Origin: Oscillospiraceae bacterium
GTDB taxonomy: Bacteria; Bacillota; Clostridia; Oscillospirales; Oscillospiraceae
Assembly: GCA_015067935.1 (NCBI GenBank)
Contig: SVLL01000001.1
Location: 53,439 to 117,438 of the forward strand
Length of the DNA stretch: 64,000 nucleotides
Reading direction: 5' to 3'
A program made the translations under genes and the position numbers. Below, piece by piece: positions 34,219-63,816 of the stretch (within the stretch, counting starts at the first letter, position 1; every line of letters begins with the position of its first letter). The notes beneath the pieces were generated by a model. The model saw only the letters and a list, made by a program, of their open reading frames with translations, was not told the origin of the DNA and made no database searches.

Positions 34219-34301
34219 GCGGATGTGGTGGAATTGGTAGACTCATTGGATTTAGGTTCCAACGCGCGAGCGTGCAGGTTCGAGTCCTGTCATCCGCACC
34301 A
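34219..34301 (+). tRNA. tRNA-Leu (anticodon UAG)
   Basis: GCGGATGTGGTGGAATTGGTAGACTCATTGGATTTAGGTTCCAACGCGCGAGCGTGCAGGTTCGAGTCCTGTCATCCGCACCA; acceptor stem GCGGATG/CATCCGC, anticodon loop TTTAGGT, encoded CCA. Confidence 0.95.
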
Positions 34302-34942: not shown

Positions 34943-34953
34943 GAAGGTGAACT

Positions 34954-36099: not shown

Positions 36100-36125
36100 C
36101 CTCACTCTTCAACAAGGCAATCCCA

Positions 36126-36676: not shown

Positions 36677-36814
36677 ATTGTCAGATAGCAGACGGGCTCG
36701 AACCCATCTGAATGCAACGCGGATGAGCGTTGCCGCCGAGGACTTGCCGCGGCGATCATTTATTTTGCTCCCCGGGAGTAAAATGCAAATCGAGTCCTGT
36801 CATCCGCACCATTA

Positions 36815-36894: not shown

Positions 36895-37437
36895 TTACTT
36901 CAGCTGCCATTCTAAGTTTACGCCCAGCTTGTTTTCACAGTAATTCTGCAGCCGTTCCGCTTCCGCAACCGTGAAATTGGGAGCGACCACATAGGTCAGG
37001 TCCACACCGTCGCCGAAGGCCGACCGACGGTCCTCCGTCTGGGAGCGGATATTTTGTATCAGCGAGTCAATGTCGTGGTAACACTTATCTTCCCGGATGT
37101 GAATGCCCTCGACATCCTCCATAAACAGGTCCGGTCTTTGCGCGCCGGGAACATTGCGGCTGCAATCGATCCAATCTCCGTATTCGTCCTGCAGGGCAAG
37201 ACCGGTTTCCTCATCGATCTCAAAGGACCGCTGGGTGTCAAATTCCGGGTGGCGGTAGCTGTCCACGAGCTCTACCTCCATCCAGTTGCGCTCGGTGGCG
37301 GATTTTTCCAGAGCCTCCGTCAGCCCTTCATCCGGCATCTCCGCCGTTTCCTCTTCCCATTCGGTCAGCTCGGAAAGCTCTTCTTCGTCCACATCGTCGA
37401 TGTAATCCTCAAAGTCGATGTAATCCTCAAATTCCAT
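36895..37437 (-). CDS. Acidic protein of unknown function
   Basis: 180 aa MEFEDYIDFEDYIDDVDEEELSELTEWEEETAEMPDE...; start codon overlaps the HerA stop by 1 nt (catta at 37435-37439). Confidence 0.8.
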   Translation of the reverse strand: MEFEDYIDFEDYIDDVDEEELSELTEWEEETAEMPDEGLTEALEKSATERNWMEVELVDSYRHPEFDTQRSFEIDEETGLALQDEYGDWIDCSRNVPGAQRPDLFMEDVEGIHIREDKCYHDIDSLIQNIRSQTEDRRSAFGDGVDLTYVVAPNFTVAEAERLQNYCENKLGVNLEWQLK

Positions 37438-39776
37438 TACGCTTCTCCTTTCGTATGTTTCCAAAGGCGGTTGGCGGCGTTCAGGGTGTTTTCCGTGTGC
37501 AGCTTGTGGGTATGGACTCTGTTGAAATCCCGGATGAACTGGACGAGGGCGCAATTGCTTTCTACGATGCTGCCCGTCCAAGCACCCATACAGAGCTGCT
37601 CCATAATGCCGTTTACCTGCCTGGAACGCTGCTTTTCCTCCTTCATGGCCATCGCTGCCTGCAGGGGCTCTGTCCATTTCCGGGTCAGCTCCGCAGCACG
37701 CTGCCGGGCGGCTGTCTTTTGCTTGTAGCTGCACTGCCCCCGGGCAGGACACATACTGCATTCGTGGAAGGTTGCCACGGAAAGCTCGGGATGGGCCTGC
37801 AGATAGCTGTTCTTGTGGGGATACGGCTTGTCCAGCTCAAAGCAATCGATCAAATTGGGGGTCTGGAAATACTGGGCGCAGGGCATCCCTTCGGTGATGT
37901 AGCAGCCTGCACCCGTTTCGCACAGATACAGATGCTGCAGTGCCTGCTCATCCGCCCGCAGGGAATCCATATAGGACCGGATGCCGCTGTCCGGAGAGCC
38001 GCCCAGAAAAATCTTGGTGGCGCAGGTGTTTGTGATAATGGAAGGGATGTTGTCTGCGCTCTGGTCCGCTATCAGGACGCCCACACCTTGCGAGCGCAGC
38101 TCAAGAAGCATATTGGCAAAATCAACGGAAAACGGGAAAGATTTACCCTGTGCGTCCTGCGCACTCTGCAGGAGATTGTGACTCTCGTCAAGGATGATCA
38201 TCAGCTTCAGGGGCTTATCCGCACAGTGCGTACCCCGCAGGCGCAGGTATGCGCTGATGCTCACTAGCAGCATACTGGCAAAAAGCTGTTTGGCCTGCGT
38301 GGTGGTAAGGCAGTTCAGCTGCAGCACATTCGACCCGGACAGCAGTTCGGTGACAGGAACGGAGTTGACCGAGTCAAACACATCCCGGTCCTGATTAAAC
38401 AGTGCCTTCAGCCGGACGATACCGGCGGTTTTTACATCCTGATTGGTGCGCTGGGAATAGCCGTCTTCCGAAAGCAGACGGACAAACTCTTCCATATATT
38501 CGTGCATACCGAAGGGCGTTCCGTCGTCCCAAGCAGAATCCTCGCTGTAGCCGTGGGCGGCAAAGCAGCGGTTCAGGGTGTCGGAGAACAGTTCTTCCAG
38601 AGGACCGTCAAGCTTGAAGCAGATTCGCAGCTGCTGGAGCATGGCTGCCCGATACTCCCGCAAGGTCACCCCGGGCGGCAGACAGAAGGGATTCAGCACA
38701 AACTCCTGCCCTTTGGGCCGCCAGCACCGCAGATCGGGTATTACCTTTCCCAGATGGTGCTGCTCTTCCTTGGCAGACTCAATCAAAAGTATCGGAATAT
38801 CTTTCTTATACAGCTGTGTCGCGACAGAGAAAAGCATATTACCCTTGCCTGTACCTATGGGGCCAAAGAGTCCAATATGCTTGCGCATCTGCTTCAGGGC
38901 CAGCATCACCGGCGTTCCGTCCTGCCGGCTGCCCAAGCGGATGGAGGGCACCTTTTCCGGCTCCTGCAGAAGCGGAATGTCGAAAAGGGTATCCTTGTTG
39001 TACTCCAGGCCGTAGCGGCCGGCGGAGGCAGACAGTGAGGAAAGCACCTGCAGCTCCTCCGGCAGGAAGGTGCTTCCCAACAATTTGAGGGGCGCAGGCA
39101 AAACCGGGTGATTTGCCGCGAAAAGCAGGTTCTTGCTTACGGTCTGCTTGGGGATCTTCAGCTCCTGAAGACCGCTGAAGTTGTAGCGCAGTTCCGAGCA
39201 GAGCAGCTCCCCTTGCTCTTCCTGACCGTAGATGCAGCCGACCCCCTCAAAAAGATCTCCGCTGCGCAGCAGCTTGCCGCAGATGCTGTCCGGCTCAGCG
39301 GATGCATTGTGCAAGGCGGTAACCGTACCGCTGTCCAAGGGCTTGCTGCGGCGGAAGAAAAAGGCAATGCCGCTTCCTTCCCGGCAGTGGGACAGCGCGG
39401 TGAACAGCGCGCCTGCCCGGGTGGGATCGACAGAAACCTGCGCAGGCAGGAACACCTGCGTGGGATTCTGTCCGGGCTTGAGGATGTAACGGCTTTCTAC
39501 GCTGCGCAGCAGCAGACGGCTTGCTCCGTCATTTTGGGGCAGACGCTCTGCCGTCTGAAAGCCGTAGCCGTTCGCACCCAGCAGGAGCAGCAGCTGCGCC
39601 TGACGCTGCGGCGTTTCCGTGCCGATATAACATTCCACCCGCTTCGCGCCCCGGTGGAGCCGAAGCTCCACCGTTTCCTCACAGGAGAAGATCCGCGCCG
39701 CCAGATCTGCGGCAGGATAGATCTCGTGCTGTCCGCTGCGGAGGATGGGTACCCGAAGAATCTGCGTATAGATCAT
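37437..39776 (-). CDS. HerA/VirB4-like P-loop ATPase with Cys cluster near C-terminus
   Basis: 779 aa; Walker A IGLFGPIGTGKGNMLFSVA, Walker B LKLMIILDESHNLLQ, LIADQSADNIPSIITNTCATKIFLG; HECSMCPARGQCSYKQ. Confidence 0.85.
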   Translation of the reverse strand: MIYTQILRVPILRSGQHEIYPAADLAARIFSCEETVELRLHRGAKRVECYIGTETPQRQAQLLLLLGANGYGFQTAERLPQNDGASRLLLRSVESRYILKPGQNPTQVFLPAQVSVDPTRAGALFTALSHCREGSGIAFFFRRSKPLDSGTVTALHNASAEPDSICGKLLRSGDLFEGVGCIYGQEEQGELLCSELRYNFSGLQELKIPKQTVSKNLLFAANHPVLPAPLKLLGSTFLPEELQVLSSLSASAGRYGLEYNKDTLFDIPLLQEPEKVPSIRLGSRQDGTPVMLALKQMRKHIGLFGPIGTGKGNMLFSVATQLYKKDIPILLIESAKEEQHHLGKVIPDLRCWRPKGQEFVLNPFCLPPGVTLREYRAAMLQQLRICFKLDGPLEELFSDTLNRCFAAHGYSEDSAWDDGTPFGMHEYMEEFVRLLSEDGYSQRTNQDVKTAGIVRLKALFNQDRDVFDSVNSVPVTELLSGSNVLQLNCLTTTQAKQLFASMLLVSISAYLRLRGTHCADKPLKLMIILDESHNLLQSAQDAQGKSFPFSVDFANMLLELRSQGVGVLIADQSADNIPSIITNTCATKIFLGGSPDSGIRSYMDSLRADEQALQHLYLCETGAGCYITEGMPCAQYFQTPNLIDCFELDKPYPHKNSYLQAHPELSVATFHECSMCPARGQCSYKQKTAARQRAAELTRKWTEPLQAAMAMKEEKQRSRQVNGIMEQLCMGAWTGSIVESNCALVQFIRDFNRVHTHKLHTENTLNAANRLWKHTKGEA

Positions 39777-39777
39777 A

Positions 39778-40704
39778 TTAAGGACCTCCCAGATAGCCCA
39801 GCCGCTGGCAGTGCTGGAAAATGGTTGCCGGGGAATGGAGCTGGCACAGATTCTTCAGCTCTGTGCAGATTCCCAGCAGCTTGGTGTGGTCATCGTTGGG
39901 ATGGGTCTGCACATAGCTGACGATCAGCTGCACCATCTCACCGGGAATGGGACTCTTGCCGTAGGTCTCCAGCAATACGCCCATGATCTTTTCCCGCATC
40001 TGCTTGCGCTCCAGATACAGCGTGTTGCTCTTCTGGACGACCTCTTCCATATTCGCGATCTCCAGCTGCACCTTGCAGTCGGTGATGCGCATCCAATCCA
40101 GCTGCTTCTGGGTCTGCCGGGCGATCTCCTTACCGAGTTCAAGGGCAATGGTATCCACCATACCCAGCGCATCGTGGGGGTCAGCCTGACGGAGCGCGCT
40201 GCTGACCGTAGTGGGATAATTGTCCAGCAGACACTCCTCCAGCGCGGCGGAAATGGTTGCCTCGGGGGACTGCATACCGGTCTGCAGGTAATCCTTTACC
40301 AGCGCGCAGGGGTCGGTAATGCAGGCACTGGCACGCACAGTGCCGGTGAGGGTGATGCAGGCCTTCTGACCGTCATCAAATACTACGGGGATCGCCTTCC
40401 GGTTTGCGAGGGAAATGCTGCCGATGGGGAACACCTCCCGGTCCACAACGATGGCATAGGCCTCGTGGGGATTGGGGGAGAGCCGTTCCAGACCACGGAT
40501 GGGGGTCTCCATCCGGCTGCCGTTTTGGAAGGGGGTCTCGTTGAGCTTTCCGTCGATGACAGTGAAGATATCCTTGCGAAGGGTGCCGCCGGGACAGTTG
40601 AAGAACAAACGGCGTCCGTCGCCGGCCAGCTCAAAGGGAATCACGGAGAGCGGACCGCTGCAGTTCAAATAAGCATCGGTATAGGTCAAAGGCATATCAG
40701 CCAC
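39778..40704 (-). CDS. Possible SPFH/virion-core-like domain protein
   Basis: 308 aa; VVDREVFPIGSISLANRKAIPVVFDDGQKACITLTGTVRASACITDPCALVKDYL...; pattern resembles SPFH domains. Sandwiched in the operon. Confidence 0.55.
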   Translation of the reverse strand: MADMPLTYTDAYLNCSGPLSVIPFELAGDGRRLFFNCPGGTLRKDIFTVIDGKLNETPFQNGSRMETPIRGLERLSPNPHEAYAIVVDREVFPIGSISLANRKAIPVVFDDGQKACITLTGTVRASACITDPCALVKDYLQTGMQSPEATISAALEECLLDNYPTTVSSALRQADPHDALGMVDTIALELGKEIARQTQKQLDWMRITDCKVQLEIANMEEVVQKSNTLYLERKQMREKIMGVLLETYGKSPIPGEMVQLIVSYVQTHPNDDHTKLLGICTELKNLCQLHSPATIFQHCQRLGYLGGP

Positions 40705-41654
40705 TCCTTTCCAAGATCGTTCAGCTGCTGTTTCAGCTGCAGGTATTGGGTGCAGGAAGCTTGCAGCTTCTGAAGATAGGTTTCGTAGTCCGGATCCTGC
40801 TTTTGCCGCATTTTTTCGGCTTTGTCGAAGGCGTGCTCCAGATATTCGGTCATCTCCGCCAGCTGCTTGCTGACGGCATCCCGCAGCCGCTGCTTACGCA
40901 GCAGCTCCCGGAGCGAACGGAAGGTGTTTTGCAGCTTGTTGCGGAAGCTTTCTGTTTCGACTGCTTGAGGAAGATAGACCATCACCAGCGTCTGATCGTC
41001 ACCGTGGCGGCCCTCATAAAGAGCTTTTTCCGTAAAATCCGCCAGCTTTTCGGGCTCCAGCAGACCCTCGGAAAGCTTCCATGAATCGCTGTAGCCGTCG
41101 GTGCAGAGGGTCAATGCGCTGCAGCCGGGATATTCGCAGTGGCGGAAGCTGCGGACCACCCGTTCCGGGCTCTGGATCATACTGGTGGTGATGCTGTGAA
41201 AGCAGTCTTTGTCCTTAGGCAGAAGCTGCATAAAGCGGCCTTCGGCATCCAGAGCGCGGATCTCACCGTCGCCCAGCTGGAATACCTCAGCCTTATCTGC
41301 GGTCATCACCGCCGCCAGCAAGGTCGTGCCGTAAGCAAGGTGGGGGGCTTTGTCGCCCAGAAGCTTCTGCTCCCGTTCGTTCAGGGGCCACCGCTCCAGA
41401 TGCCGCTGCACCATACGGTCAAAGGTCTCCTTCACCGCCTTAGGGAAATCCGCTGCCGGGGTGCCTGCACGCAGCAGCCGGATGGCTGCCGCGCAGGCGA
41501 TTCTCGCACCCATGGAGGAGCGGACATAGCACTCTTTGCCGTGACCGTCTGCCACAGCGGCTATGACCTTCTCCTCATCGGTATAGAGCCGGTAATGGTC
41601 CTGAATGAGGCGGTGGTAAGTGCCGGTGTTTTGCCGGCAACAAAGCTTAAACAT
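40686..41654 (-). CDS. PP2C-family protein phosphatase
   Basis: MFKLCCRQNTGTYHRLIQDHYRLYTDEEKVIAAVADGHGKECYVRSSMGARIA; AYGTTLLAAVMTADKAEVFQLGDGEIRAL; LTLCTDGYSDSW. Confidence 0.85.
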   Translation of the reverse strand: MFKLCCRQNTGTYHRLIQDHYRLYTDEEKVIAAVADGHGKECYVRSSMGARIACAAAIRLLRAGTPAADFPKAVKETFDRMVQRHLERWPLNEREQKLLGDKAPHLAYGTTLLAAVMTADKAEVFQLGDGEIRALDAEGRFMQLLPKDKDCFHSITTSMIQSPERVVRSFRHCEYPGCSALTLCTDGYSDSWKLSEGLLEPEKLADFTEKALYEGRHGDDQTLVMVYLPQAVETESFRNKLQNTFRSLRELLRKQRLRDAVSKQLAEMTEYLEHAFDKAEKMRQKQDPDYETYLQKLQASCTQYLQLKQQLNDLGKEWLICL

Positions 41655-41676
41655 CGCGTCCACCTCTTTTCGATAA

Positions 41677-42546
41677 TTATGCGCCCAGCAAACCGTTGCC
41701 CAGCAGATCGTCGATCTTCTGCTCCAGCTTCTTCTGGGTGAAGTCTTCAGCAGTGGACATACCCTCTTCCTGACGCTCCACGGCCTGCTTGCCAACAGCG
41801 GCGGGGGTCTGGTTGTCCACATCGTAGTCAGTGTGGGTGGGATCCACATAAGTCAAGGTGGTCTTGATCATAGTGGGGGCCAGACGGCGGCTCAGGTCCT
41901 TATCAAGTGCGATGATGTTATCGGCGGAACCTGCCAGCAGAACGGCCTCATTCTTGTCCTTCTCGTTGCCCACATACACGCAGATCACATCCATCAGCTG
42001 CTTGACCAGACGGTTGTGATTGATCCGCTCGGTGGCCTGCTTACGGACAGCGGCATCGTCGGTGCCGGCAAAGTCGGTGATCATGGGGGCAATGATCTTG
42101 TAGTCACCCTTCTTGCGGTTGGTGACCATGGGATTGGTGCGGCTTACATCCAGATAACGGATGGCTGCGCTCAGGTTGGTGCCGCCATGGCAACGGAGCT
42201 GTTCCCGGGTAAAGATCTCAGCCAGCTGCTCAGGGGGCAGGGGAGTGCTGTTGAACTCATGGACATCGTCGTTGAAGGTCACGATCTTTACGCGAAAGGA
42301 GATCTTCAGGTCGGTCTTATTCTGCTTGGCAAGGCTCATAAGGGTCTCCTGAACGGCTTCGTACATATCCTCCTCGTGGATGCCCATAGAACCGCTGGTG
42401 TCCAGCATCAAAAGCACCAGACACTCGCGCAGCTGCTCGGCATCCTCATGCAGGCCGTCATCCTCGAGGACACGGATGCGCTCCATAGTGTGGTTGAAAA
42501 CGGCGGGGGTGAACAGGTTGGCAGAATGGATGGGGTAGGTTTTCAT
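41677..42546 (-). CDS. vWA domain protein (TerY-like)
   Basis: CLVLLMLDTSGSMGIHEEDMYEAVQETLMSL (MIDAS DxSGSM), CHGGTNLSAAIRYLD, APMITDFAGTDD. Confidence 0.88.
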   Translation of the reverse strand: MKTYPIHSANLFTPAVFNHTMERIRVLEDDGLHEDAEQLRECLVLLMLDTSGSMGIHEEDMYEAVQETLMSLAKQNKTDLKISFRVKIVTFNDDVHEFNSTPLPPEQLAEIFTREQLRCHGGTNLSAAIRYLDVSRTNPMVTNRKKGDYKIIAPMITDFAGTDDAAVRKQATERINHNRLVKQLMDVICVYVGNEKDKNEAVLLAGSADNIIALDKDLSRRLAPTMIKTTLTYVDPTHTDYDVDNQTPAAVGKQAVERQEEGMSTAEDFTQKKLEQKIDDLLGNGLLGA

Positions 42547-42580
42547 AGTAGTTTCCTCCTTGATATTTAAAGTTTTAGAT

Positions 42581-43549
42581 TTATACGGGATAGGACATTT
42601 CCAGAAGCTTCATAAAGTCGCCCAGACCGCGGCGGGGGGTCTGTCTGTGAAGGCAGTCGTCGCTGAAAAGGTGGCAATAGTAAAGCTTCAAAGGCTCGGG
42701 GATCTGTGCCCAGCGGGTCCGGGCGAGGGGAAAGGGGGTGTTGTTGTTCTGACCGAAGGAAAAATGGGGGGCTTTGCCGTAATGCTTGATAAAATTCTCG
42801 GGTGTATCGGGCTCTGCAAGCACCAGCTCACCGTCAAGGGGATGGTGGCGGCAGAATATCAGAAATGAGAGAACGCCAAACCCGTGAATATCGCTCTGAA
42901 TGCTGGGAACCTGGGGCTTTCCGGTGGCAGGATCGGGAACGATCTGCTCGGGTGCCCGGTAGTCACCGGTGCCGCCCAGACCCATATTGTACTTCTCCAG
43001 ATTCACATTCTCGCAATCGATGACCCGCACGCTGAAGGTGCCGTCAGGATTGATCTTGAAGAGGAAGTTGCTGTCGGAGATATCGCCGTAGATCAGGCCC
43101 ATCCGGTGCAGGACCATAATGGGCTCTGCCATGGCCTTGACCAGCTTGGCACGCTGCTGCATGGTCAGCTGCTTGTTCTTGATGGCGGCAGTCACCGGCA
43201 AGTAGCCTTCCACCAAGGGCATGGTGTACAGAAAGCTTGTCCGGTCCTTGTTCATCAGGCTCACCGACTTGGGCCAAACCAGTGCCGGGTGGGGAGAGCC
43301 CTCCTTAGCCATCAGCATACACTTGCGGTGGAAGGCCATTTTGCCCCCCATACCGTTGAACTTCTTGCGGTTGTTGGCGAATCGGTTGTAAAGGTGCTTC
43401 AGAGCCAGCAGCTCGCCGGTGCTCACATCCTGCACCTTGTATACATCGCCCTGCTCACCGCTGCCCAGAAAATCCAGAACCCGGACCTGTGTCGGCTTGG
43501 GGGCGTGAAGCTGCAGGATCTGACCTGCTTGGAAATTCATCTGTTTCAT
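42581..43549 (-). CDS. Ser/Thr protein kinase-like protein
   Basis: VLDFLGSGEQGDVYKVQDVSTGELLALKHL; GLIYGDISDSNFLF (catalytic loop); RVIDCENV (DFG-equivalent); GTGDYRAPEQI. Confidence 0.9.
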   Translation of the reverse strand: MKQMNFQAGQILQLHAPKPTQVRVLDFLGSGEQGDVYKVQDVSTGELLALKHLYNRFANNRKKFNGMGGKMAFHRKCMLMAKEGSPHPALVWPKSVSLMNKDRTSFLYTMPLVEGYLPVTAAIKNKQLTMQQRAKLVKAMAEPIMVLHRMGLIYGDISDSNFLFKINPDGTFSVRVIDCENVNLEKYNMGLGGTGDYRAPEQIVPDPATGKPQVPSIQSDIHGFGVLSFLIFCRHHPLDGELVLAEPDTPENFIKHYGKAPHFSFGQNNNTPFPLARTRWAQIPEPLKLYYCHLFSDDCLHRQTPRRGLGDFMKLLEMSYPV

Positions 43550-43569
43550 GGTGTCACTCCTTTTTTCGT

Positions 43570-44229
43570 TTAGCCCATGTAATACTTGCGGTTGGGACTG
43601 TACATTCTTTCAAACTCGGCACACATCTGTGCCACCAGCCGGGGATCCAGATTGGGCTTGTAATGGCAGCTCTTGGGACAGACATCATAACGCTCGGGCA
43701 GCCAGTGGTGCTTGTGCGCCTGCATATAGGCGTCGCTTTTCAAATAGTAGGTGTAAGAACCGTAACGGCTCCGGTGGAGATCCCAAGTGGGGTCCATGTG
43801 ATAGGTGGTCATACACCCGTTTTCGTCCGGGAGTCTGACCTGAAGCCAAGCGTGGTGATCCTTGGAGCCGGTGATGCAGCCGATCACCACGCGGCAATCA
43901 ATGCCGCACAGCCGATAGAGGACGAAGAGAATCTCGCTGATCCCCATACAGACCGCTGTGCCCGTGAGCATTGCCGATGCGTAGGTAAACCGAAGGTCAT
44001 TATCCTTTTCATTATGGTTGTACTGAACACATTCGGTCACCACGCGGTACAGCAGCAGGGCTTTTTCGTGGGGCGTCAGATTTTCGGGCATCTTCGTACA
44101 GAAGATAAGCAGCTTTCGTTTGATCTGCGCGAACTGTGCATCATTCATCGCGTTGCGGGTGACAAGGATGTTTTGCCGTTGATAGTTCTTGTGAACCCTC
44201 AGCAGCTTACTGCGGATTGCCGGTGTCAT
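43570..44229 (-). CDS. Transglutaminase-like protein
   Basis: Cys/His/Asp triad motifs LTGTAVCMGISEILFVLYRLCGI, SKDHHAWLQV, TYHMDPTWD. Confidence 0.85.
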   Translation of the reverse strand: MTPAIRSKLLRVHKNYQRQNILVTRNAMNDAQFAQIKRKLLIFCTKMPENLTPHEKALLLYRVVTECVQYNHNEKDNDLRFTYASAMLTGTAVCMGISEILFVLYRLCGIDCRVVIGCITGSKDHHAWLQVRLPDENGCMTTYHMDPTWDLHRSRYGSYTYYLKSDAYMQAHKHHWLPERYDVCPKSCHYKPNLDPRLVAQMCAEFERMYSPNRKYYMG

Positions 44230-44260
44230 TTTTTTGCCTCCTTCCGGTGGGTTTGATTGA

Positions 44261-44289
44261 AAAATATCACAACTTGAAAAAGTTGTCAA
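44261..44289 (-). promoter_or_regulatory. Sigma-A promoter for the leftward operon
   Basis: On minus strand TTGACA (44289-44284), 17-nt spacer, TATTTT (44266-44261). Confidence 0.7.
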
Positions 44290-44520
44290 TAACTATTTTT
44301 TCAAAGCAAAAATGCGGATTTAGATGCGATAAAAGTTAGATTTTCTAGGTTTTTCAGAAAATAAAAAATCTGATTTTTTCCTTTTCGATTTCCGTTTTTT
44401 TCCTCCGTTGGAATCCGGAAAAGCAGTGCGACTTTTTATCCGTTATTCGGAATTCTGATTTTTGGGCGGTTTTGAATTCAGAAAAGCTTTTCGACAAAAA
44501 TTATTCAGAAAAAACATCTG

Positions 44521-44549
44521 TTGACGGAAAGAAAAAGAATTATTACAAT
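44521..44549 (+). promoter_or_regulatory. Sigma-A promoter for rightward operon 1
   Basis: TTGACG (44521-44526), 17-nt spacer, TACAAT (44544-44549). Confidence 0.7.
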
Positions 44550-44596
44550 AATTGCAGAAAAAGAAAGATACCTTACATAAAAAGGAGAAATGGAAT

Positions 44597-45448
44597 ATGG
44601 CACCGAACAACAGACGGTCCAACGGCTCGAATAATTGGTTTTTCTTCCCTATGCAGGATCCTTTGGATATCAAGATACGCCAGATGCGTGACAAGGAACG
44701 GAAGCTGGAGGCGATGGAAAACGCCCTGCTTCAGTTGAAAGCGGATGTGGAAGCCCGGGAGCAGAAGCTGGCATCCGCAGCGGAAGATATAAAGAACCGG
44801 CAGATGCAGCTGGAGCTTTGGGCAAACGAATTGCAGAAGAAGGCAGACCGGCTGGGCGAAAGAGAAAGCCACCTGACCGAATGGGATCAGGCGGTTAAGG
44901 AAGCCTACGAGCAAACCGCAGCACAGGCAGAGCAGGCCCGGCAGATGGAGCGTTGGCAGCAGTCATTGGAGGAATCGGCAGAACGCTACCGTCAGGAGCG
45001 GACCAACTGGGAAAGCACAGTGGGCTCTATGCCCGAATCCGATTACCGGCAGAATATTGAAGCAGGTATGCAGAGCCTTACGGAGCATTTCGGAAACACC
45101 TTCCGGGAAATGCAGGAGCTGCGCAATCAGATCCGGGAATTGAGCGGAGCCATTCAGAGTTGCGATTGGGCTGCGGTGGAGCAGCTGTGCGAGCTGCACA
45201 GACGGCTGGAGCTGCTTGCTACCGGAGAGGCTCTGCGGGAGGCGGATTTTCTTGGGGCGATCCTCAAGAAATACTATAACCTCTGCCCCATTGAGCCGGC
45301 TCTGGGCAACAATTATTCCGAAACCCACCACGAGCGGCTCCATCGGGAGCAGGGCGGTCGGCTGATCATTCGCTGCTTCAGCAAGGGCTGGGCGAGCAAT
45401 GATACGGTTGTGCGCAGAGCCTTGGTGGATACCGCAGACGCGGTTTAA
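44597..45448 (+). CDS. Coiled-coil protein with GrpE-like C-terminus
   Basis: Long heptad-rich coiled coil; C-terminal NNYSETHHERLHREQGGRLIIRCFSKGWASNDTVVRRALVDTADAV resembling GrpE head domain; located 21 nt upstream of an Hsp70-like gene. Confidence 0.7.
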   Translation: MAPNNRRSNGSNNWFFFPMQDPLDIKIRQMRDKERKLEAMENALLQLKADVEAREQKLASAAEDIKNRQMQLELWANELQKKADRLGERESHLTEWDQAVKEAYEQTAAQAEQARQMERWQQSLEESAERYRQERTNWESTVGSMPESDYRQNIEAGMQSLTEHFGNTFREMQELRNQIRELSGAIQSCDWAAVEQLCELHRRLELLATGEALREADFLGAILKKYYNLCPIEPALGNNYSETHHERLHREQGGRLIIRCFSKGWASNDTVVRRALVDTADAV

Positions 45449-45469
45449 AAGAGAAAGGAGCGTTTACTG

Positions 45470-47080
45470 ATGGCACTTGTTGATGAACTCAACGATATGC
45501 TGGGCGACGGAAATGCCGCCGGAACCAGCTTCGGTATGGACTACGGCACTACCACCTGCGTATTTGCCTATAAGGAAGGTCCTTCCGCACCGCCCAAGGT
45601 GGTTAACTTCAGCAGCGTTTTGCGGAATTGGGAGATTCAGGATAATGCACCCAGTTTGTTTATGTGTGACGACAACGGCAGGGAGTACGCCTGTGATGAG
45701 GTCGTAGCGAAAAACGGTCTGGTGAACAATCCCGGAGCGGTTTGCAATTCCATCAAGACCAAGCTGGAAGAAAAAGAGATCATCCTGAACGGGCGCGAAT
45801 ATAAAACCCACTATATTGCCGTGGCGGTTGCCAAGCGGTTTATGGAGATCTGCAAGCTGGCTCTTAAGGAAGAGATGGTCTGTGATCCAATCAATTTGCT
45901 TGTGATCGGCGTGCCGGTGCTCTTCAATGCCGCCGCCCGGCGCGAATTAAAGCTCATTTTGCAGGAAGCCACCGGAATATCGGTGTATTTGGTGCCGGAA
46001 CCCATTCTGGCTGCGGTTGCCCATTCCTTTTATCTGCGCCGCCGCAAGGATGTAGTTTTTGTCGCCCGGGATACGATGACGCTGGATGTGGGCGGCGGCA
46101 CCACCGACTGTGTGGTTTTGAAGCCCAATCCCAAGCCAACCGCCAGCCAGCCCCATCCCTACACCGCCCATAATCCCGACGGTCTGATCGAGGCCGGCGA
46201 TGATATGGACCTCTGCATGATGAAGCTGATGACCGAAAAAATCTGCCGAAATCCCGGCACCATCAGCCAGAGCAATATCAAGGAGCTGTCCAATAAGAAC
46301 AGTTATATGTATTGCAGCCTGCGCCGGTTTGCCAAGCGGTTCAAGGAGCAGCTGTCCGGCGTGGATGTATTTGAGGATAATCTTTCCTTCGGTAAGGACT
46401 ACGGCAATACCTTTGTGAAGGTCACCCGGGAAGAATACGAAGATGCGATCCGCCCCCTGATCCGCAGAATCGTGGATCTGGCAGATCAGGTGCTGCGCAA
46501 GACCTACAGCGCGGCCCGGCCCGATGTGGACATTCTGCTGGTGGGCGGTGCTACCTACACCCCTCTGCTGACCCAGATGCTGCAGGAACGGTTTCCCTGG
46601 CTGAAGGACCGGATCTATCAGCAGTTCCCGGAGAAGGCAGTGGCAATGGGTGCGGCAATCTATGCGGAAACCCCGGATCTGGTGACCCCCAAGGTGGCAT
46701 TCGGCTATGCCGTGGATACCTTCGCCAGCGACGGTGTAACGGAGGTCCTGCAGGTGGTGATCCCCTCCGATGCGGTCCTTCCCAAGAAGGATATTTCCAA
46801 CTACAAGACCTTAAAGGAAGGCCAGACGGCGGTCACCTTCCATGTGTACGAGATTTACAATACGGACGGACGCAAGGTTCTTTCTATGGATGAGGGCTCC
46901 CAGAAGGAGTATTCCATCACCCATAAATTCGGGCGCAGAGTTCCTATGGGCACCAATGTATCGCTGACAACCACCCTTTCGGAAGAGGGCTTGCTGACGA
47001 TGAAGGTTACGGATTTCCTCTACGACAGCCCGGGACCCACAACGGTGACCTTTAATCTTTCCGGCACGACCCCTGTCTGA
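45470..47080 (+). CDS. Hsp70/DnaK-like ATPase
   Basis: FGMDYGTTTCVFAYKEG (phosphate 1), TLDVGGGTTDCVVLKP (phosphate 2), DILLVGGATYTPLLTQML (adenosine), AVAMGAAIYA. Confidence 0.92.
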   Translation: MALVDELNDMLGDGNAAGTSFGMDYGTTTCVFAYKEGPSAPPKVVNFSSVLRNWEIQDNAPSLFMCDDNGREYACDEVVAKNGLVNNPGAVCNSIKTKLEEKEIILNGREYKTHYIAVAVAKRFMEICKLALKEEMVCDPINLLVIGVPVLFNAAARRELKLILQEATGISVYLVPEPILAAVAHSFYLRRRKDVVFVARDTMTLDVGGGTTDCVVLKPNPKPTASQPHPYTAHNPDGLIEAGDDMDLCMMKLMTEKICRNPGTISQSNIKELSNKNSYMYCSLRRFAKRFKEQLSGVDVFEDNLSFGKDYGNTFVKVTREEYEDAIRPLIRRIVDLADQVLRKTYSAARPDVDILLVGGATYTPLLTQMLQERFPWLKDRIYQQFPEKAVAMGAAIYAETPDLVTPKVAFGYAVDTFASDGVTEVLQVVIPSDAVLPKKDISNYKTLKEGQTAVTFHVYEIYNTDGRKVLSMDEGSQKEYSITHKFGRRVPMGTNVSLTTTLSEEGLLTMKVTDFLYDSPGPTTVTFNLSGTTPV

Positions 47081-47093
47081 ACGGAGGTAGTAT

Positions 47094-48149
47094 ATGGCTA
47101 AGAAAAAGTCTGAAAGCTCTGCGCAGGGCTACTGGTTTGATATTGTCAGCGGCATTTGTTTTTCCGACCCCCTTCTGGATTACACCAACTTTATGCTTCT
47201 TTATTTGGCACCTGCCACAGTAACCTGCGGCAAAAACTACGGTAAGACCACCGGCCGTACCGCCGGTCGGGCCAAAAAAGGCGAGGAAATCAAGAAGGAT
47301 AAGCTTGTCCTGCGGCAGAAGGAATTTCTCAATTTCTATACCGAGACATTGAAGGAAATCTCTGTGGATGACAGCATCAAATCCCCTGCGGACCGGGCAA
47401 AGGAATTGGTGGAAAAGCTTACCGCGCCCCGGTTCTTTGTGGCAGAGGACAAGGAGTACGGCGCAAAGCCGGAGAACTGTACGGAAGACCGGTATCTGGG
47501 AATGTTCACCAATGTGATGCACGCCGGAAACCGCAATGCGAAAAAGGTGATGGACGAGGTGGTCACCATCTATGCGTCAATTGCCGGAATCGTCTATGAG
47601 CACACGGAAAAAAAGCAGCTCAGCTTCATCATCGATACCCTGCAAACGCAGATTCTGGCGGCGTTTCCCGAGCTGCGCATTCAGGAACACGAGGATGAGA
47701 TGACCCATCTGGGCTGGCTGATGTGCACGATGCTTCTTCTGCAGGCGTGGAAAAAAGACAGCACCGAGCCGGATTGCGCCCTGATGAACGGTCTGTTGGG
47801 ACTGGAATTGGAGGCGGCAGAGAAAGTTGTCCAGCCCCAGAAGCGGAATATCGCGCTGGAAATTCCCATGTTCCGGAATCTCTGTATGGCTGCGCTGCGT
47901 TCGAAGATGCAGCTGCAGGAGATGCAGGATTTTTACAATCTGCTCAAGCGGATTCACCAAACCATGCCCGAGTGCCTTACCCCGGACATCGTGAACGCCT
48001 TCAGTACGCACTTGTCCGAGGCCTATCAGGAGCAGATCCGGCAGATGCCTACCATCGATAATGCAAACAGCCTGATCGATGTTCTGAAAAACCTGCAGGA
48101 AATGGAAAAGACCTGTCAGGAAATCCTCCGGGCAATGGACAGCGTGTAG
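47094..48149 (+). CDS. Hypothetical protein (351 aa) co-transcribed with Hsp70-like gene
   Basis: Long ORF with RBS (ggaggt), 13 nt after hsp70-like stop; no recognised domain. Confidence 0.8.
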   Translation: MAKKKSESSAQGYWFDIVSGICFSDPLLDYTNFMLLYLAPATVTCGKNYGKTTGRTAGRAKKGEEIKKDKLVLRQKEFLNFYTETLKEISVDDSIKSPADRAKELVEKLTAPRFFVAEDKEYGAKPENCTEDRYLGMFTNVMHAGNRNAKKVMDEVVTIYASIAGIVYEHTEKKQLSFIIDTLQTQILAAFPELRIQEHEDEMTHLGWLMCTMLLLQAWKKDSTEPDCALMNGLLGLELEAAEKVVQPQKRNIALEIPMFRNLCMAALRSKMQLQEMQDFYNLLKRIHQTMPECLTPDIVNAFSTHLSEAYQEQIRQMPTIDNANSLIDVLKNLQEMEKTCQEILRAMDSV

Positions 48150-48162
48150 CCGTTTCTCCTTG

Positions 48163-48191
48163 TTGCATCTGCCTAGGCAATGTGGTATACT
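48163..48191 (+). promoter_or_regulatory. Possible internal promoter for TIR gene
   Basis: TTGCAT, 17-nt spacer, TATACT, in the ~170-nt gap before the TIR gene. Confidence 0.45.
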
Positions 48192-48320
48192 GGCGGCAGC
48201 AACAAGCAGGTTCAGGACGGAAAGCTGCTGAGAAACCGTGGGCTTTACCGCAGGATATACGAGCTGTATCCCGTTTGGGCCGCATACAACAAAAATCACA
48301 AAAGAGCGAGGGGGATTGTT

Positions 48321-49574
48321 ATGCCGGTCAAAACCCAATCAAAGGACATTTTTATAAGCTATCGGCGGGAGGACGGCTCTCTCTATGCGCATATTCTGGC
48401 CCAGTCTCTTGCAGAAAAGGGGTATTCCGTTTTTTATGACCGCAGAGCACTGGTCGTTGGATCTGTGTTTCCGCAGGAGCTGACCTGCGCGGTGGAAGAC
48501 TGCCACGACTTTATTGCCATCGTTTCCCCTATGTATCTGGCAGCGGAAAAGGATGGGGCATTGCGCATTGAGCAAGAGGAGGATTGGGTACGCAAGGAGA
48601 TCAGCCTTGCGCTGAAAAACGGCAAAAATATTATGCCCGTCGTAGTTGGCGGTGCCGCCAAAACCCCGTTGCCCAAAGATTTGGAAGCGTTTTCTAACCG
48701 AAACTTTATCAGCTTTGACCAGACGGCACCAATCGAGGAATTTGTTACCCGTCTGGAATTGGGTTTTTCTGAGGAAACCAAGGAAAATCGGGAATATAAT
48801 ACCCTTATGCAGGAACTGCGGGACATCAGCGATGAGCAGGACAATGATTTTAATATCAAGGTCCGCAAGCTGATTATGAAACACGACGAAGAGACCGTGG
48901 AAAAGAAGCTGCTGCCGCTGATCAAAGCTATGAAAGAGCCTGATTTGTGTTTCACCGCCTACTATGCGGCATTTACTTTCTACCGACGGCTGGGATATGT
49001 GTATAAAATTCACGATTTGGTGGATCACTTTAACGAGCAATTTAAGGATTATCGTTTTAATAACATCATTCTGTCCCAGCATTACAGCACCCTGTTTCAG
49101 CTGGAGGGGCATAAGCCGGAGGATTTACGCAAAGCCATAGAATATGCCCGCATTGCCTTGGAAAAGATCCCGGAAAACAGCGGCGTGATGCAAAATTACG
49201 CGGACCTGATTACCAAGGGCTTTGAGATGGGGGTAATGGGGAAAAGAAAAGACAAAGAGCAGCTGGCGTATGCCATCGGCAGAATTGAAAATGCCCTGAA
49301 AATCAATCCGGGTTATCCAAAGTATCACTGCACACTGGGAAGATTGCTCTCCTTCAAAAACCGTTTTGATGAGGCAATTATGGCCATTGAAAAGGCGATC
49401 AGTCTGGAAAATATGGAAACGAAGGATTCTTTTATCCGCATCGTGGAGTACAACAAGTATATTTTCGACATTAAACTCCGAAAGGTGCAAAGCAGGGTGC
49501 AGAATGGCTTTTTCTTCACCGGTGCGATGTTGGGTATTCTGGCAGTATTATGGATTTTGGGGCGTGTGCTATGA
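48321..49574 (+). CDS. TIR domain - TPR-like repeats - C-terminal TM protein
   Basis: KDIFISYRREDGSLYAHILAQSLAEKGYSVFYDRRAL...EEDWVRKEISLALKNGKNIMPVVVGG; helical repeats; C-terminal FFFTGAMLGILAVLWILGRVL. Confidence 0.9.
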   Translation: MPVKTQSKDIFISYRREDGSLYAHILAQSLAEKGYSVFYDRRALVVGSVFPQELTCAVEDCHDFIAIVSPMYLAAEKDGALRIEQEEDWVRKEISLALKNGKNIMPVVVGGAAKTPLPKDLEAFSNRNFISFDQTAPIEEFVTRLELGFSEETKENREYNTLMQELRDISDEQDNDFNIKVRKLIMKHDEETVEKKLLPLIKAMKEPDLCFTAYYAAFTFYRRLGYVYKIHDLVDHFNEQFKDYRFNNIILSQHYSTLFQLEGHKPEDLRKAIEYARIALEKIPENSGVMQNYADLITKGFEMGVMGKRKDKEQLAYAIGRIENALKINPGYPKYHCTLGRLLSFKNRFDEAIMAIEKAISLENMETKDSFIRIVEYNKYIFDIKLRKVQSRVQNGFFFTGAMLGILAVLWILGRVL

Positions 49575-50353
49575 GCAAACTGGAAACAATTTTGGATTTT
49601 TCCCACGGCAGCTGGGGTGAGGACCGGATTTTTGCCGGGGAGAAGCTGTGCTTTGTGATCGACGGTGCTACTCCTATTTCCGGTGCGCCCTTTGGGGCAT
49701 ATCACACCGGTGCGGAGTGGATGGCAGAGGAATTGAGCCGATATTTGGCGGAACATGATGGAGAGATTCCGGCACTTTGCAAGCAGTTTACGGAGCAAAC
49801 CCAGTGCCTTCTGCAGGAAGAGTTCCGGGATGTACACAGTATGCCCTGTGCAGTGCTGTCGGCTGTCCGGTGGGAGAAAGCGCATATTCAGGGCTATGTT
49901 CTGGGAGACTGTGCCGTATATGTTCTGCACAATAGCGGAGAAATTGCCTGCTATGCAGACCGGCGGACGGCAACTTTTTATAAAAAAACCCTGCAGGCGA
50001 AAGCCAATGCCGCAAAAGCCGGTATGGATGTGGAGGAAGCAGTCCGGGACCAGAGAAAAAAGAACAAGGCGGCAATGAATCAGCCTGGCGGATATTGGAC
50101 CGTTTCCTATATCGGTGATTTTGAACGGGAATTTTGTACATTCCGGATTCCTGCGGAGGAAATTCAGGGAATTTTGCTGTGTTCAGACGGTTTTGACAGA
50201 ATTTTCGAAAGGAATCTGTTCACACCGGAAGATATTCTCAGGGGAAAAATATCCCTGAATGCCGCTCTTTCCAAGCTGCGTGCAGCGGAGAAAGTAAGCT
50301 CAGCGGATGTGAAGGTTCACGACGATGCCTCGGCAATTCTGCTGCGTCCGTAA
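49571..50353 (+). CDS. PP2C-like phosphatase
   Basis: EDRIFAGEKLCFVIDGATPISG, VLGDCAVYVLHNSGEI, ILLCSDGFDRIF, VKVHDDASAILL; overlaps the TIR stop by 4 nt (ATGA). Confidence 0.8.
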   Translation: MSKLETILDFSHGSWGEDRIFAGEKLCFVIDGATPISGAPFGAYHTGAEWMAEELSRYLAEHDGEIPALCKQFTEQTQCLLQEEFRDVHSMPCAVLSAVRWEKAHIQGYVLGDCAVYVLHNSGEIACYADRRTATFYKKTLQAKANAAKAGMDVEEAVRDQRKKNKAAMNQPGGYWTVSYIGDFEREFCTFRIPAEEIQGILLCSDGFDRIFERNLFTPEDILRGKISLNAALSKLRAAEKVSSADVKVHDDASAILLRP

Positions 50354-50361
50354 AGATTACA

Positions 50362-50389
50362 GAAAGCACCCCTTTTGGGGTGCTTTTTC
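50362..50389 (+). terminator. Intrinsic terminator
   Basis: aaagcaccccttttggggtgctttttc. Confidence 0.8.
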
Positions 50390-50485
50390 TATGCGAAAAA
50401 ATGTTGCAAAAACGGTTATAAAGTACAAAAAAGGAAGTAACTATGGTGTAAAACCCGGAATCAAGACCCGTTTGGAGGCTTTTTG

Positions 50486-50514
50486 TTGACAAGGGGCGAA
50501 TTAGGGTGTATTCT
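50486..50514 (+). promoter_or_regulatory. Sigma-A promoter for rightward operon 2
   Basis: TTGACA (50486-50491), 17-nt spacer, TATTCT (50509-50514). Confidence 0.65.
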
Positions 50515-50574
50515 ATTTATAATATATGTATAATCGGTAAATAGTAATTTTTTTGCTTTAAGGAGGCAGAGGAA

Positions 50575-52695: not shown

Positions 52696-52716
52696 TGTTT
52701 ATTTATAAAGGAGTTT

Positions 52717-56220: not shown

Positions 56221-56239
56221 GCAAGTGTTTTAATCACCA

Positions 56240-56274
56240 AGGCCCCGGTGTGCAGCGCAGCACATCGGGGCAAA
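56240..56274 (+). promoter_or_regulatory. Intergenic hairpin within rightward operon 2
   Basis: ggccccggtgtgcagcgcagcacatcggggc: long stem between two operon genes, no T-tract. Confidence 0.5.
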
Positions 56275-56284
56275 GGGGTTTACT

Positions 56285-58168: not shown

Positions 58169-58192
58169 TTATCGTAACACAGGAGAATACCT

Positions 58193-61100: not shown

Positions 61101-62011
61101 TCCCCCAGATCACCAGCGACGATGTGAAGGAAAATACGGACGATAAGCTCTACATCTACATCGCCCAGTTCTCCGCCCGGGATACCGGCGCGCTGACCGC
61201 CATCGCAGAGGATCTAGACCGGATTCTGAGCACGGTGCTGAAGTACCTGAAATGGTCTGAGGCGCAGAAAATCGGTGCACCGGAATACCTGCGCTTCGGC
61301 TATGAAGAAGTGCCCGGCATTTTTGCCACCCACGATACGGTGTACTGTCTGCCCAACTTCTTTGACCATGTGCCCGACAGCGAGCCCCTCGGGAAAGAAG
61401 AGGACACCGCCCCGAGAATCGGAGATAAGAGGTGCAGCTTCTGCGGCAAGCGCGTATCGGCCGCCTATACCGAGATGGACGATGGGCGCATTATGTGCCC
61501 GGAATGCGGCAGCCACCTTGCCAATAGCCGTGAGGAAGTGAAGCAGCTGCTGCAGCAGGCGATCCAGATTCTGGAAAAGACCTACGGCATCACCCTTCCC
61601 GACGGCATCAAGGTCAAGTTCAAGAGTGCCTCCACCATCCGCGAGCATACTCAATCCAACGGACGGGTGCTGGGCTTCTACAACCTAAAGCGCAAGGAAA
61701 TCTGGATCGAGCGCAACGGCCCCAAGGCCTGCGTGCTGTCCACCCTCCTTCACGAGCTGACCCACGCATGGCAGCACGCCAATATTTCCATGGATATTGA
61801 GCTGCATTATCTGGAAGGTCACACCTCCTATGTGGAAGTGGAGTGTATGCGCCTGCAAAAGCAGAGAGCTTATGCAGATTTTCTCAACGAATCCCTGATG
61901 AATGCGGACGATGCCTACGGTCAGGGCTACCGCCTGTGGAAGCAATATCTGCAGGACGAAAGCGACAAGAACATCTTCCACCATGTGCAGAAACAATTTC
62001 CGAAGAGGTGA
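58193..62011 (+). CDS. Multi-TM protein with degenerate helicase-like core, zinc ribbon and HExxH metallopeptidase domain
   Basis: 1272 aa; 4-5 N-terminal TM; VLVLCDSQLQVQRM / TDVLVCTEEEFLS / GVVVMLDAYGLL order; CSFCGKRV...CPECGS zinc ribbon; STLLHELTHAWQ...YLEGHTSYVEVE. Confidence 0.75.
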   Translation: MFVILSTLLIGCILLGCISVKETKMEMAHRVLHIRYVFVTVLYVILCATLFAKVLDLINWIISLPLIRDILFFVTPPGNVAGSFYWIITLLCCLLLTVIYLALMNLLKKCWLQPLEKRKYLETKLFWEKFFNELAGGFYEIDDAGAKLSPKFYTVGRWIRAMRWGYGFFLLAEVLFITLYVQFNWTFLGEEFFPDLVKSLFMLPVLVYFLLEQVELFLAADRTKDDILVETEKVGMVQKGDFTPFVEEYQKRFQDKSLIAYHKGDPEKVRQSLFTGIQAEQKQRVQNPALLEALCRNVECATNISHQYVNGLIDLINGENIAVFDTPWGDFDPYYLSYVQHKLVLKNTVLVLCDSQLQVQRMCKRLHSVFTKLNRVCPIWRIHNMGSMVDGQTDVLVCTEEEFLSNPIDEHHKDFTKRLGVVVMLDAYGLLCRESAYSSRIFDFLGERKLQYIFYLPENSTDIRHRLQERIGCGEIQLRENPQINQDTHLMLWRADAIYKPQTVLSTRLYEDFGVAYAIAILASKMGATAVNILAPESVPLQTYYHLVTQKYTKELMVDALQSEAINLSNIIRNNDYSVAEPSQLNFCIVYDELNNLLDVAQTWLAYGGAASSMLHIVSPPYMLRDYFACNQSSLMADTTGLQMLIPKRPLGRRVPALALLLRMHRGVLCQDVEAFAKANQIRADRLEDIIKAALEIVFGDSRRYDIYTSFSFTECTEPTFDGGYKYTVQVKLINESLYKALCRMTEQFARLTGARNEMLPIHEQDIYNHYLPQQLVSFGNERYRVQEIKDGRVQISPEATIPADLFYTPLYDILDLKRTDTRMPAVPMNNKVVMDYFEAAVTRQITGFFAHPGMLDLTDKNATHLEKLSTPIVETKTVPCLQMEFSCPMSGRSDKIANTLCFLLKGALATFLPHNHKDLLVFSRLDMDKIFQGVNFHEDNGLLPDPIPSDLWTDFNKEEEIDPAICKLIPQITSDDVKENTDDKLYIYIAQFSARDTGALTAIAEDLDRILSTVLKYLKWSEAQKIGAPEYLRFGYEEVPGIFATHDTVYCLPNFFDHVPDSEPLGKEEDTAPRIGDKRCSFCGKRVSAAYTEMDDGRIMCPECGSHLANSREEVKQLLQQAIQILEKTYGITLPDGIKVKFKSASTIREHTQSNGRVLGFYNLKRKEIWIERNGPKACVLSTLLHELTHAWQHANISMDIELHYLEGHTSYVEVECMRLQKQRAYADFLNESLMNADDAYGQGYRLWKQYLQDESDKNIFHHVQKQFPKR

Positions 62012-62017
62012 TAGGCA

Positions 62018-63022
62018 ATGAAAAAGGCATTACAGCTTTTGCTGGTTCTGGCATTGCTCCTGTCGGTTCTGACGGGCTGCGGCTCTGCGAATGATCTTCT
62101 GGATGATTATGTGGGGCAACTGGCCTCCGGGTTTGAGGACTACATCCAGATGACCCCGGAAATGCAGGATGTGCTGGATACGCTGGACAAGATGCTCAGC
62201 GGCTATGTCAGCGGCCTGAACAAGCCCTCTGCCGACAATATTCCCCAGACCTCCCTGGATTCCGACGATCAGAATATTTTCCAGACGGTCACCAACGAAT
62301 GTGCCACAGTGGAGGAAATGAGGGCACTGCTCCTGCAGACGATGAAAAATACGGAGAAAACCGTAAAATTCTACGCCCTCGATTCCTATTACACCAACGA
62401 TGTTTTGTACGATGTGATCTTCAATCAGCTCTGCGACAATTATATGATCGACACGATGGGCACCCACAAGTACACGGTCACCACGATGAAAACCCTGAAC
62501 CGGCAAATCGCCGTACAGGTGGAATTTACCTACTTCGATGACAAGTACCCCCTTGAGCAGGTGAAGTCCATGAAGGAGCAGACGCTGGCAAAGGCCCGGG
62601 AAGTGGTAAGAGAATTGGACCTTGCCAACCTGAGCGTGTATGAACGGGTCAAGGCGGTGAACGATTATCTGATCGACAACTGCGTTTACCCGGATGCCGA
62701 GCCCTATTCCAAGGAATCCCACTCGCCCTACGGCGCGTTGATTGAGCGCAGTGCAGTTTGCGAGGGCTATGCCCGTGCCGCCCAGCTTCTGTTTGAGCTG
62801 TGCGATGTGCCCAGCTACTATGTGGTGGGTGACACTAAGGCAGGCGGTCACGCTTGGAATCTGGTGCAGATCGACGGCAAGTGGTATCAGATGGATGCCA
62901 CCTGGAACGATACGGAAACCAATCGGAATATGTACTTTTTGGTGACGGATGCCTTTATGTCCCATTCCCGTACTTGGGATCGGACCAAGTATCCGGCCAC
63001 TGCAACCACCCCCTATCAGTAA
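62018..63022 (+). CDS. Lipoprotein with transglutaminase-like domain
   Basis: Lipobox LLSVLTGC; RSAVCEGYARAAQLLFELCDVPSYYV, GHAWNLVQIDGKWYQMDATWND (Cys-His-Asp). Confidence 0.9.
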   Translation: MKKALQLLLVLALLLSVLTGCGSANDLLDDYVGQLASGFEDYIQMTPEMQDVLDTLDKMLSGYVSGLNKPSADNIPQTSLDSDDQNIFQTVTNECATVEEMRALLLQTMKNTEKTVKFYALDSYYTNDVLYDVIFNQLCDNYMIDTMGTHKYTVTTMKTLNRQIAVQVEFTYFDDKYPLEQVKSMKEQTLAKAREVVRELDLANLSVYERVKAVNDYLIDNCVYPDAEPYSKESHSPYGALIERSAVCEGYARAAQLLFELCDVPSYYVVGDTKAGGHAWNLVQIDGKWYQMDATWNDTETNRNMYFLVTDAFMSHSRTWDRTKYPATATTPYQ

Positions 63023-63036
63023 AGGAGACGATCGCG

Positions 63037-63816
63037 ATGGCAGAAGAAATTTCCTTTGAGGAAATTAAAAATGTATTTGCCCTGCGGGGCAAAAATGCAG
63101 GCTGCAGCCTGAAGCTCCGGGGCAAAGTGGTGCTGGTGGCTTTCCTGATCAATGACGGCGAAAGCGGCTGGAGCAAGGAAACCGAGAAGCTTTTTGCGGA
63201 TAACCTGAAGCAGATATCCAAGGATCTGATGGATAAAAGCGGATTGAGCCGGGACGAGCTGGAAATTGCTTATGCCTTCTGTCAGGTGTCCGTGCCCTAT
63301 ATTGTGGACAAGCGCAATGTGGATCGGTTTGTGAAGGATGTGCTGCGGCAATTCGGTACTTATCCGGATATTCAGGCCTACCAGAAGCACTATGAGGACA
63401 AATTTTCCCGGGATGAGGCCTGCGTTTCCTTTGTGTTCAACAAAAAATTCCGCTCCTATGCGGTCAAAATCGAGGGTGCTGCCGGTGCGCAGACGGAAAA
63501 TCCCGAGGGCAACGAGTATTCCATCGTGTCCTTTGATGTGCAGGATCCGGAAACCGGGCGCAAGACCTTTATCCACGAACTGATGCACCAGTTCGGTGCG
63601 GTGGATTATTACTATCCCGAATTCGTAAAGCTGAAGGCGGAATACTATCTGCCCGGCAGCATTATGAATGACGGTACGGAAATCGACGATGTGACCCGGT
63701 ATGTGATCGGCTGGGATGCAGAGTTGACCCAGACGGCCAAGGAATTTTTGAAGTCCGTGGCCCGGGTTTCCGATGCGGACCGCAGGAGCGCGCTCCGGGA
63801 AGAATGGGAAAATTGA
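63037..63816 (+). CDS. Putative zinc metallopeptidase (HExxHxxGxxD)
   Basis: 259 aa MAEEISFEEIKNVFALRGKN...; TFIHELMHQFGAVDYYYPEFVKL. Confidence 0.8.
   Translation: MAEEISFEEIKNVFALRGKNAGCSLKLRGKVVLVAFLINDGESGWSKETEKLFADNLKQISKDLMDKSGLSRDELEIAYAFCQVSVPYIVDKRNVDRFVKDVLRQFGTYPDIQAYQKHYEDKFSRDEACVSFVFNKKFRSYAVKIEGAAGAQTENPEGNEYSIVSFDVQDPETGRKTFIHELMHQFGAVDYYYPEFVKLKAEYYLPGSIMNDGTEIDDVTRYVIGWDAELTQTAKEFLKSVARVSDADRRSALREEWEN

Follow-up and report, generated by a model that had tools for sequence, protein, structure and literature searches.

Do three closely spaced gene blocks at the end of a bacterial contig work together as one machine, or have separate accessory modules simply come to lie side by side? 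This question is raised by a locus in a 64,000-nucleotide stretch of Oscillospiraceae DNA (hereafter the window; contig SVLL01000001.1, positions 53,439 to 117,438), which forms a contig end of a 1.78-Mb metagenome-assembled genome (79% complete). A preliminary description placed three blocks here, and these are indeed present with the strands and order described: unit A (kinase, vWA, PP2C, HerA-like and transglutaminase genes), unit B (GrpE, Hsp70, TIR and PP2C genes) and unit C (50575-63816). That description took all three for a single membrane-associated, phosphorylation-controlled machine. On balance, we read the locus as a patchwork of accessory modules by a tRNA-Leu hotspot, with unit C as a mobile membrane tubulin-GTPase operon that likely serves in conflict or anti-phage defence. 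Sequence comparison indicates that unit C is a widespread and real system, which units A and B merely adjoin here.

Unit C as a recurring tubulin cassette

Unit C consists of a minimal four-gene cassette (C1-C4), followed in the window by C5 and C6. Since the contig stops at the window end (64000), the 3' boundary of the unit lies beyond view. The genes are as follows.

C1, 50575..52695, + strand: secreted or membrane-anchored vWA protein (VWA 2.9e-5) with a signal peptide and an intact metal-ion-dependent adhesion site (MIDAS) motif, DDSGS
C2, 52717..56220, + strand: Tubulin_2/FtsZl1 protein (PF13809 1.2e-43; 150 bits against a cut-off of 27)
C3, 56285..58168, + strand: coiled-coil protein with two transmembrane (TM) segments and an N-terminal alpha/beta domain (TM scan; no Pfam model)
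C4, 58193..62011, + strand: polytopic protein with a predicted YprA/MrfA-like pseudohelicase fold, a zinc ribbon (CxxC..CxxC) and a zincin motif (HELTH), from AlphaFold2 (AF2), Foldseek and hhalign
C5, 62018..63022, + strand: transglutaminase-like lipoprotein (PF01841 1.5e-12; NCBIfam lipoprotein family 4.6e-29)
C6, 63037..63816, + strand: small zincin (HELMH; Reprolysin_3 0.0062, M6 domain 0.003)

C2 carries the conserved GTP-binding motif GGTGSG and a helical C-terminal region, and the TM scan places a single segment in C1 near residue 556-574. An alignment of C2, scanned against a collection of 85,462 species, yielded at least 80 tubulin loci. When the window proteins were compared with the 80 listed loci (tblastn, E<=1e-4), C2 was matched in all 80, C1 in 66, C4 in 57 and C5 in 15; C3 and C6 were matched in 2 each, A7 in 6 (transglutaminase cross-matches) and B4 in 2 (TIR). 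By profiles and gene order, the arrangement C1-C2-C3-C4 (vWA, tubulin, C3, C4) is intact in 44 of 74 listed tubulin loci, many of the remaining 30 being truncated by contig ends. Loci with this order are spread over several phyla, and in most relatives a C1 homologue lies immediately upstream of the tubulin gene. C3 is a core family as well, forming a single cluster across 49 of the listed loci. In the closest of the listed loci (L081 and L082) the complete C unit is preserved, six genes in the same order at 25-44% identity and with the C5 lipobox; no other locus of the 80 has a C6 homologue.

The link between C2 and C4 can also be followed at the level of genomes. Among 60 relatives, C4 occurs in 5 of the 6 Tubulin_2-positive genomes and in 0 of the 54 negative ones, always at the tubulin locus; our hypergeometric estimate puts the probability of such an overlap by chance at ~1e-6. 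A congener holds a far more divergent Tubulin_2 gene (G010:C13:44193-45239) without a C4 relative.

Several other genes were seen around the core elsewhere. At nine loci, a gene family lies directly downstream of C4, and its tested member (L108:19797-22799, 1001 amino acids) is an FtsK-like ATPase. A multi-TM family of ~600-650 amino acids flanks the core at thirteen loci (L098, L134 and L137 among them), with a RyR domain in one member. Upstream of tubulin cores we also find a TIR-LRR protein of 869 amino acids (L152:2464-5073) and a TIR protein (L160:4798-5637), and in three actinobacterial loci (L091, L096, L100) a GmrSD_C-Excalibur protein is encoded upstream on the opposite strand.

The pseudohelicase fold of C4

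What kind of protein is the partner that accompanies this tubulin? Residues 226-1272 of C4, modelled by AF2 with 32 sequences (pLDDT 81, pTM 0.75), find MrfA (6znp) as best PDB match in Foldseek (E 2e-20), followed by other superfamily 2 (SF2) helicases. With hhalign, C4 and MrfA align at E 2.4e-4 and are colinear across ~650-670 columns, with scores of 40-44. Shuffling or reversing MrfA lowers the score to 20-25, and none of 70 unrelated proteins exceeds 30 (75 columns). The MrfA reference profile consisted of two full-length proteins from two Bacillaceae genomes, the PF09369 frames in relatives being only ~620 amino acids long. Single-sequence PDB searches with C3 and with C4 gave no match, and the AF2 model of C3 (pLDDT 73.5) has no PDB match at E<=1e-3.

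In the profile alignment, the Walker A site of MrfA (ASGKT) faces WGDFD in C4 and its DExH site (IDELH) faces MLDAY; neither a helicase P-loop nor a DExH motif is consistently present across the C4 family. We take C4 to be a membrane-anchored SF2 helicase fold of the YprA/MrfA type whose ATPase motifs, judging from model and profiles, have been lost. The CxxC..CxxC and HE[LM]TH motifs come after the helicase part. In some members HExxH is missing and a transglutaminase-like domain forms the C-terminus instead (five relatives have such fusions, of ~1730-1760 amino acids), and in other relatives the peptidase is encoded as a separate gene.

The YprA/MrfA DUF1998 helicases, known from MrfAB and placed at the heart of DISARM, Dpd, Druantia and ARMADA by a survey (PMC12458937), have their fold in common with the entire helicase part of C4. 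Unlike them, C4 is membrane-anchored and tubulin-linked, lacks Walker A and DExH, and carries a zincin or transglutaminase domain where those carry a nuclease. The FtsZl1/Tubulin_2 operons, which include vWA, kinase and GTPase genes (Makarova and Koonin 2010, PMC2875224), share with unit C a Tubulin_2 protein with a helical C-terminus, an adjacent vWA gene, membrane proteins and patchiness. Unit C differs from them in that no OmpA protein was seen and in having the YprA-like pseudohelicase, with its peptidase domains, as a constant partner; the diverged P-loop GTPase that is frequent but not constant in FtsZl1 systems was not found by Pfam in the window proteins.

The main text of the FtsZl1 paper mentions no helicase or peptidase. 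A C4-like partner goes unmentioned in the main texts of that paper, of the tubulin work of Kaur et al. (2020, PMC7159879) and of the 2025 YprA survey (PMC12458937), the last of which lacks the words "tubulin", "transmembrane" and "vWA"; an unnamed family in the supplements of these papers may correspond to C3 or C4. In line with the preliminary description, a described system made up of just these genes did not come to light, nor did the literature yield a demonstrated function for Tubulin_2/FtsZl1 proteins, described in 2010. A membrane-bound and apparently dead relative of the DISARM/Druantia helicases would link a tubulin-like cytoskeletal family to phage conflict, and would do so testably.

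Mobility and purpose of the cassette

How did the units come to lie here? The tRNA-Leu gene at 34219-34301 has the 22 bases of its 3' end duplicated exactly at 36790-36811 (0 expected), and the two copies bracket a 2.5-kb low-GC insert; a comparable repeat of the tRNA end is seen in L169. Seven relatives share the RNase Y-tRNA-Leu arrangement, and in them none of A, B and C follows the tRNA (several stretches are short, at contig ends), and the post-tRNA sequences share little with one another, forming a hypervariable flank. Because of the tRNA-end repeat, this hypervariability and the absence of A, B and C in relatives, we regard the flank as an integration hotspot, and units A-C sit just behind it. 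The insert (34745-36545) encodes a Cys-rich peptide resembling the precursor of a ribosomally synthesized and post-translationally modified peptide, a radical SAM protein (PF04055 3e-8) and, by eye, a small open reading frame with a GIY-YIG-like YIG motif.

Within the genus, 10 of 136 genomes have a Tubulin_2 of this type, ~25% identical to the window C2, which in the tubulin tree clusters with L081/L082 and away from other congeners. Given its starred branches, nine congeners cannot be placed with fewer than six label changes, which points to repeated horizontal transfer of the tubulin cassette. From these comparisons, unit C is a horizontally moving cassette.

As to its working, C1 would sense an envelope or extracellular cue, and C2 may assemble with GTP under the membrane via C3. 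C4 could act without ATP as a binder or scaffold, with incoming nucleic acid as a possible ligand, and the peptidases (the zincins of C4 and C6; the transglutaminase-like domain, carried by C5 or as a C4 fusion) would then act on the target. We consider conflict or anti-phage surveillance the likely purpose and envelope remodelling a less likely one; the distribution and the YprA relationship make us favour defence, though only moderately.

Several points weigh against this reading. The purpose and the order of events are guesses from sequence, and defence genes show no clear enrichment beside the core (GmrSD_C in 4 and TIR in 2 of 125 neighbours). The 80 loci were selected by the tubulin itself, and the absence of A and B relatives (see below) rests on single-sequence searches, which are blind to distant kin. 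The topology of C4, with the helicase part inside, was judged from charges by eye. Finally, neither an integrase nor a far boundary came into view, and the claim of an A-C island therefore rests on absence in relatives.

Possible, if clearly less probable, is a role for unit C in remodelling the membrane or maintaining the envelope rather than in defence, the kind of function that Makarova and Koonin suggested for FtsZl1. The membrane-anchored and secreted parts, the lipoprotein and the tubulin fold would suit such a role, which also has a published prediction and the scant defence enrichment nearby in its favour. It sits less well with patchiness within one genus, repeated transfer and the hotspot position, and with a core of the type that DISARM, Dpd, Druantia and ARMADA use. 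More tentative still, and in our view doubtful, is the fullest form of the defence reading, namely a phylum-crossing, membrane-anchored surveillance machine in which a dead YprA-type helicase, a tubulin-like GTPase and peptidase effectors make up an undescribed anti-phage strategy.

Units A and B beside the cassette

Do units A and B belong to the same machine? Their genes are listed here.

A7, 43570..44229, - strand: transglutaminase-like protein (PF01841 4.4e-11)
A6, 42581..43549, - strand: protein kinase (PF00069, Pkinase, 3.6e-17) with catalytic residues present (YGDISDSN, VIDCE)
A5, 41677..42546, - strand: vWA protein (VWA_2 8.5e-7; MIDAS DTSGS)
A4, 40686..41657, - strand: PP2C phosphatase (PF13672 5.1e-27)
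A3, 39778..40704, - strand: protein encoded between the PP2C and HerA genes (no Pfam match)
A2, 37437..39776, - strand: HerA/FtsK-like ATPase (HerA_C 2.3e-4 and DUF87 0.004, both sub-threshold; PADLOC mad8 5e-9)
A1, 36895..37440, - strand: acidic protein (no Pfam match)
B1, 44597..45448, + strand: GrpE-like coiled-coil protein (PF01025 7e-4, sub-threshold)
B2, 45470..47080, + strand: Hsp70 family protein (PF00012 3.6e-23)
B3, 47094..48149, + strand: unassigned protein
B4, 48180..49574, + strand: TIR-TPR-TM protein, candidate effector (TIR_2 1.8e-17; one C-terminal TM)
B5, 49550..50353, + strand: second PP2C phosphatase (PF13672 6.4e-12)

Gene starts were set by eye at 44229 for A7 and 44597 for B1 (both ATG), and corrected to ~41657 for A4 (the listed 41849 being overlong), ~37440 for A1 and ~63037 for C6 (replacing 62854). 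Most domain calls of the preliminary description hold: Pfam matches exist for the kinase, two PP2C, two vWA and two transglutaminase-like proteins, Hsp70, TIR/TPR and Tubulin_2, and its two HExxH motifs are those of C4 and C6. The HerA-like and GrpE-like calls drew consistent matches, but sub-threshold ones. Its consensus-like promoters fared worse: in 44000-51000 there are 6 promoter-like matches against 6.6 in shuffles (and 8 terminator-like ones against 8.4), and at shuffle frequency promoter-like matches carry no evidential weight alone.

We judge it improbable that A, B and C are one phosphorylation-controlled machine in which kinase and phosphatase tune tubulin assembly, with Hsp70 and TIR as chaperone and effector arms. 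The units are contiguous and closely spaced in one accessory region, kinases occur in FtsZl1 operons elsewhere (PMC2875224), and tubulin, Hsp70+GrpE and kinase/PP2C/vWA are all themes of GAP1-N2 systems (PMC7159879), but separate, non-overlapping ones. Against this, A1-A6, B1, B2, B3 and B5 were found in 0 of the 80 listed tubulin loci (tblastn E<=1e-4), Pfam shows none of Hsp70, Pkinase, PP2C and VWA recurring (at least twice) among the 125 neighbouring proteins, and the nearest full C units (L081, L082) carry no unit A or B genes. Such absence beside tubulin homologues is the very outcome that the preliminary description had named as speaking against itself. As the A and B genes, kinase and PP2C included, do not recur with unit C, phosphorylation control of a tubulin machine is unsupported; what stands is a membrane-associated, accessory tubulin/vWA machine, and no examined relative that carries it has A and B alongside. 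Very improbable, lastly, is a degraded GAP1-N2/DO-GTPase conflict system: unit C shares with that tubulin theme (PMC7159879) a tubulin with a helical C-terminal region, a TM vWA protein, the membrane location and occurrence in Firmicutes and Actinobacteria, but C4 is helicase-like, the window proteins up to 64000 hold no DO-GTPase or GAP1 domain (none at E<=1, within Pfam's models of them) and no FNIII or second tubulin was found, nor the two tubulins plus YtkA-vWA of the Firmicutes form.

Units A and B are probably a separate divergent operon pair, forming a second, rare conflict module. The TerY-P triad consists of a kinase, a vWA protein and a PP2C phosphatase, and unit A likewise has these adjacent (A4-A6), a likeness by domains and adjacency. 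The units here differ in that no Ter genes were found and that the unit A operon adds HerA-like and transglutaminase genes; the earlier comparison with TerY-P applies to unit A only and not to the rest of the locus. Of the MADS defence system, the full mad1-8 set is missing: there are weak kinase and ATPase matches only (mad6/mad8), and Pfam finds no methyltransferase in units A-C.

Among the genomes sampled, units A and B lack close relatives. No relative was found of A5 in 398 other genomes of the phylum (1e-12), of B2 in 391 other genomes of the class (1e-22) or of B3 in 400 other genomes of the family, and none of B2 in viral contigs. On plasmids, B2 matches Hsp70s only ~25% identical and A2 has relatives of only 24-28% identity, with no kinase/vWA/Hsp70 set beside the latter in five regions viewed. 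The SPFH-like label that the preliminary description gave to one protein, here A3, could not be confirmed: A3 scored about as random controls against an SPFH profile, in a low-power test in which a true Band_7 protein scored poorly too. On a plasmid of Rhodococcus pseudokoreensis (L174), Hsp70, TPR, GrpE and FtsK genes stand in a row, recalling unit B plus A2. In family relatives (L062, L064, L066), HerA-like ATPases ~30% identical to A2 adjoin SPFH/Band_7 and zinc-ribbon/TPR genes, and once a transglutaminase gene too, forming a recurrent small module.
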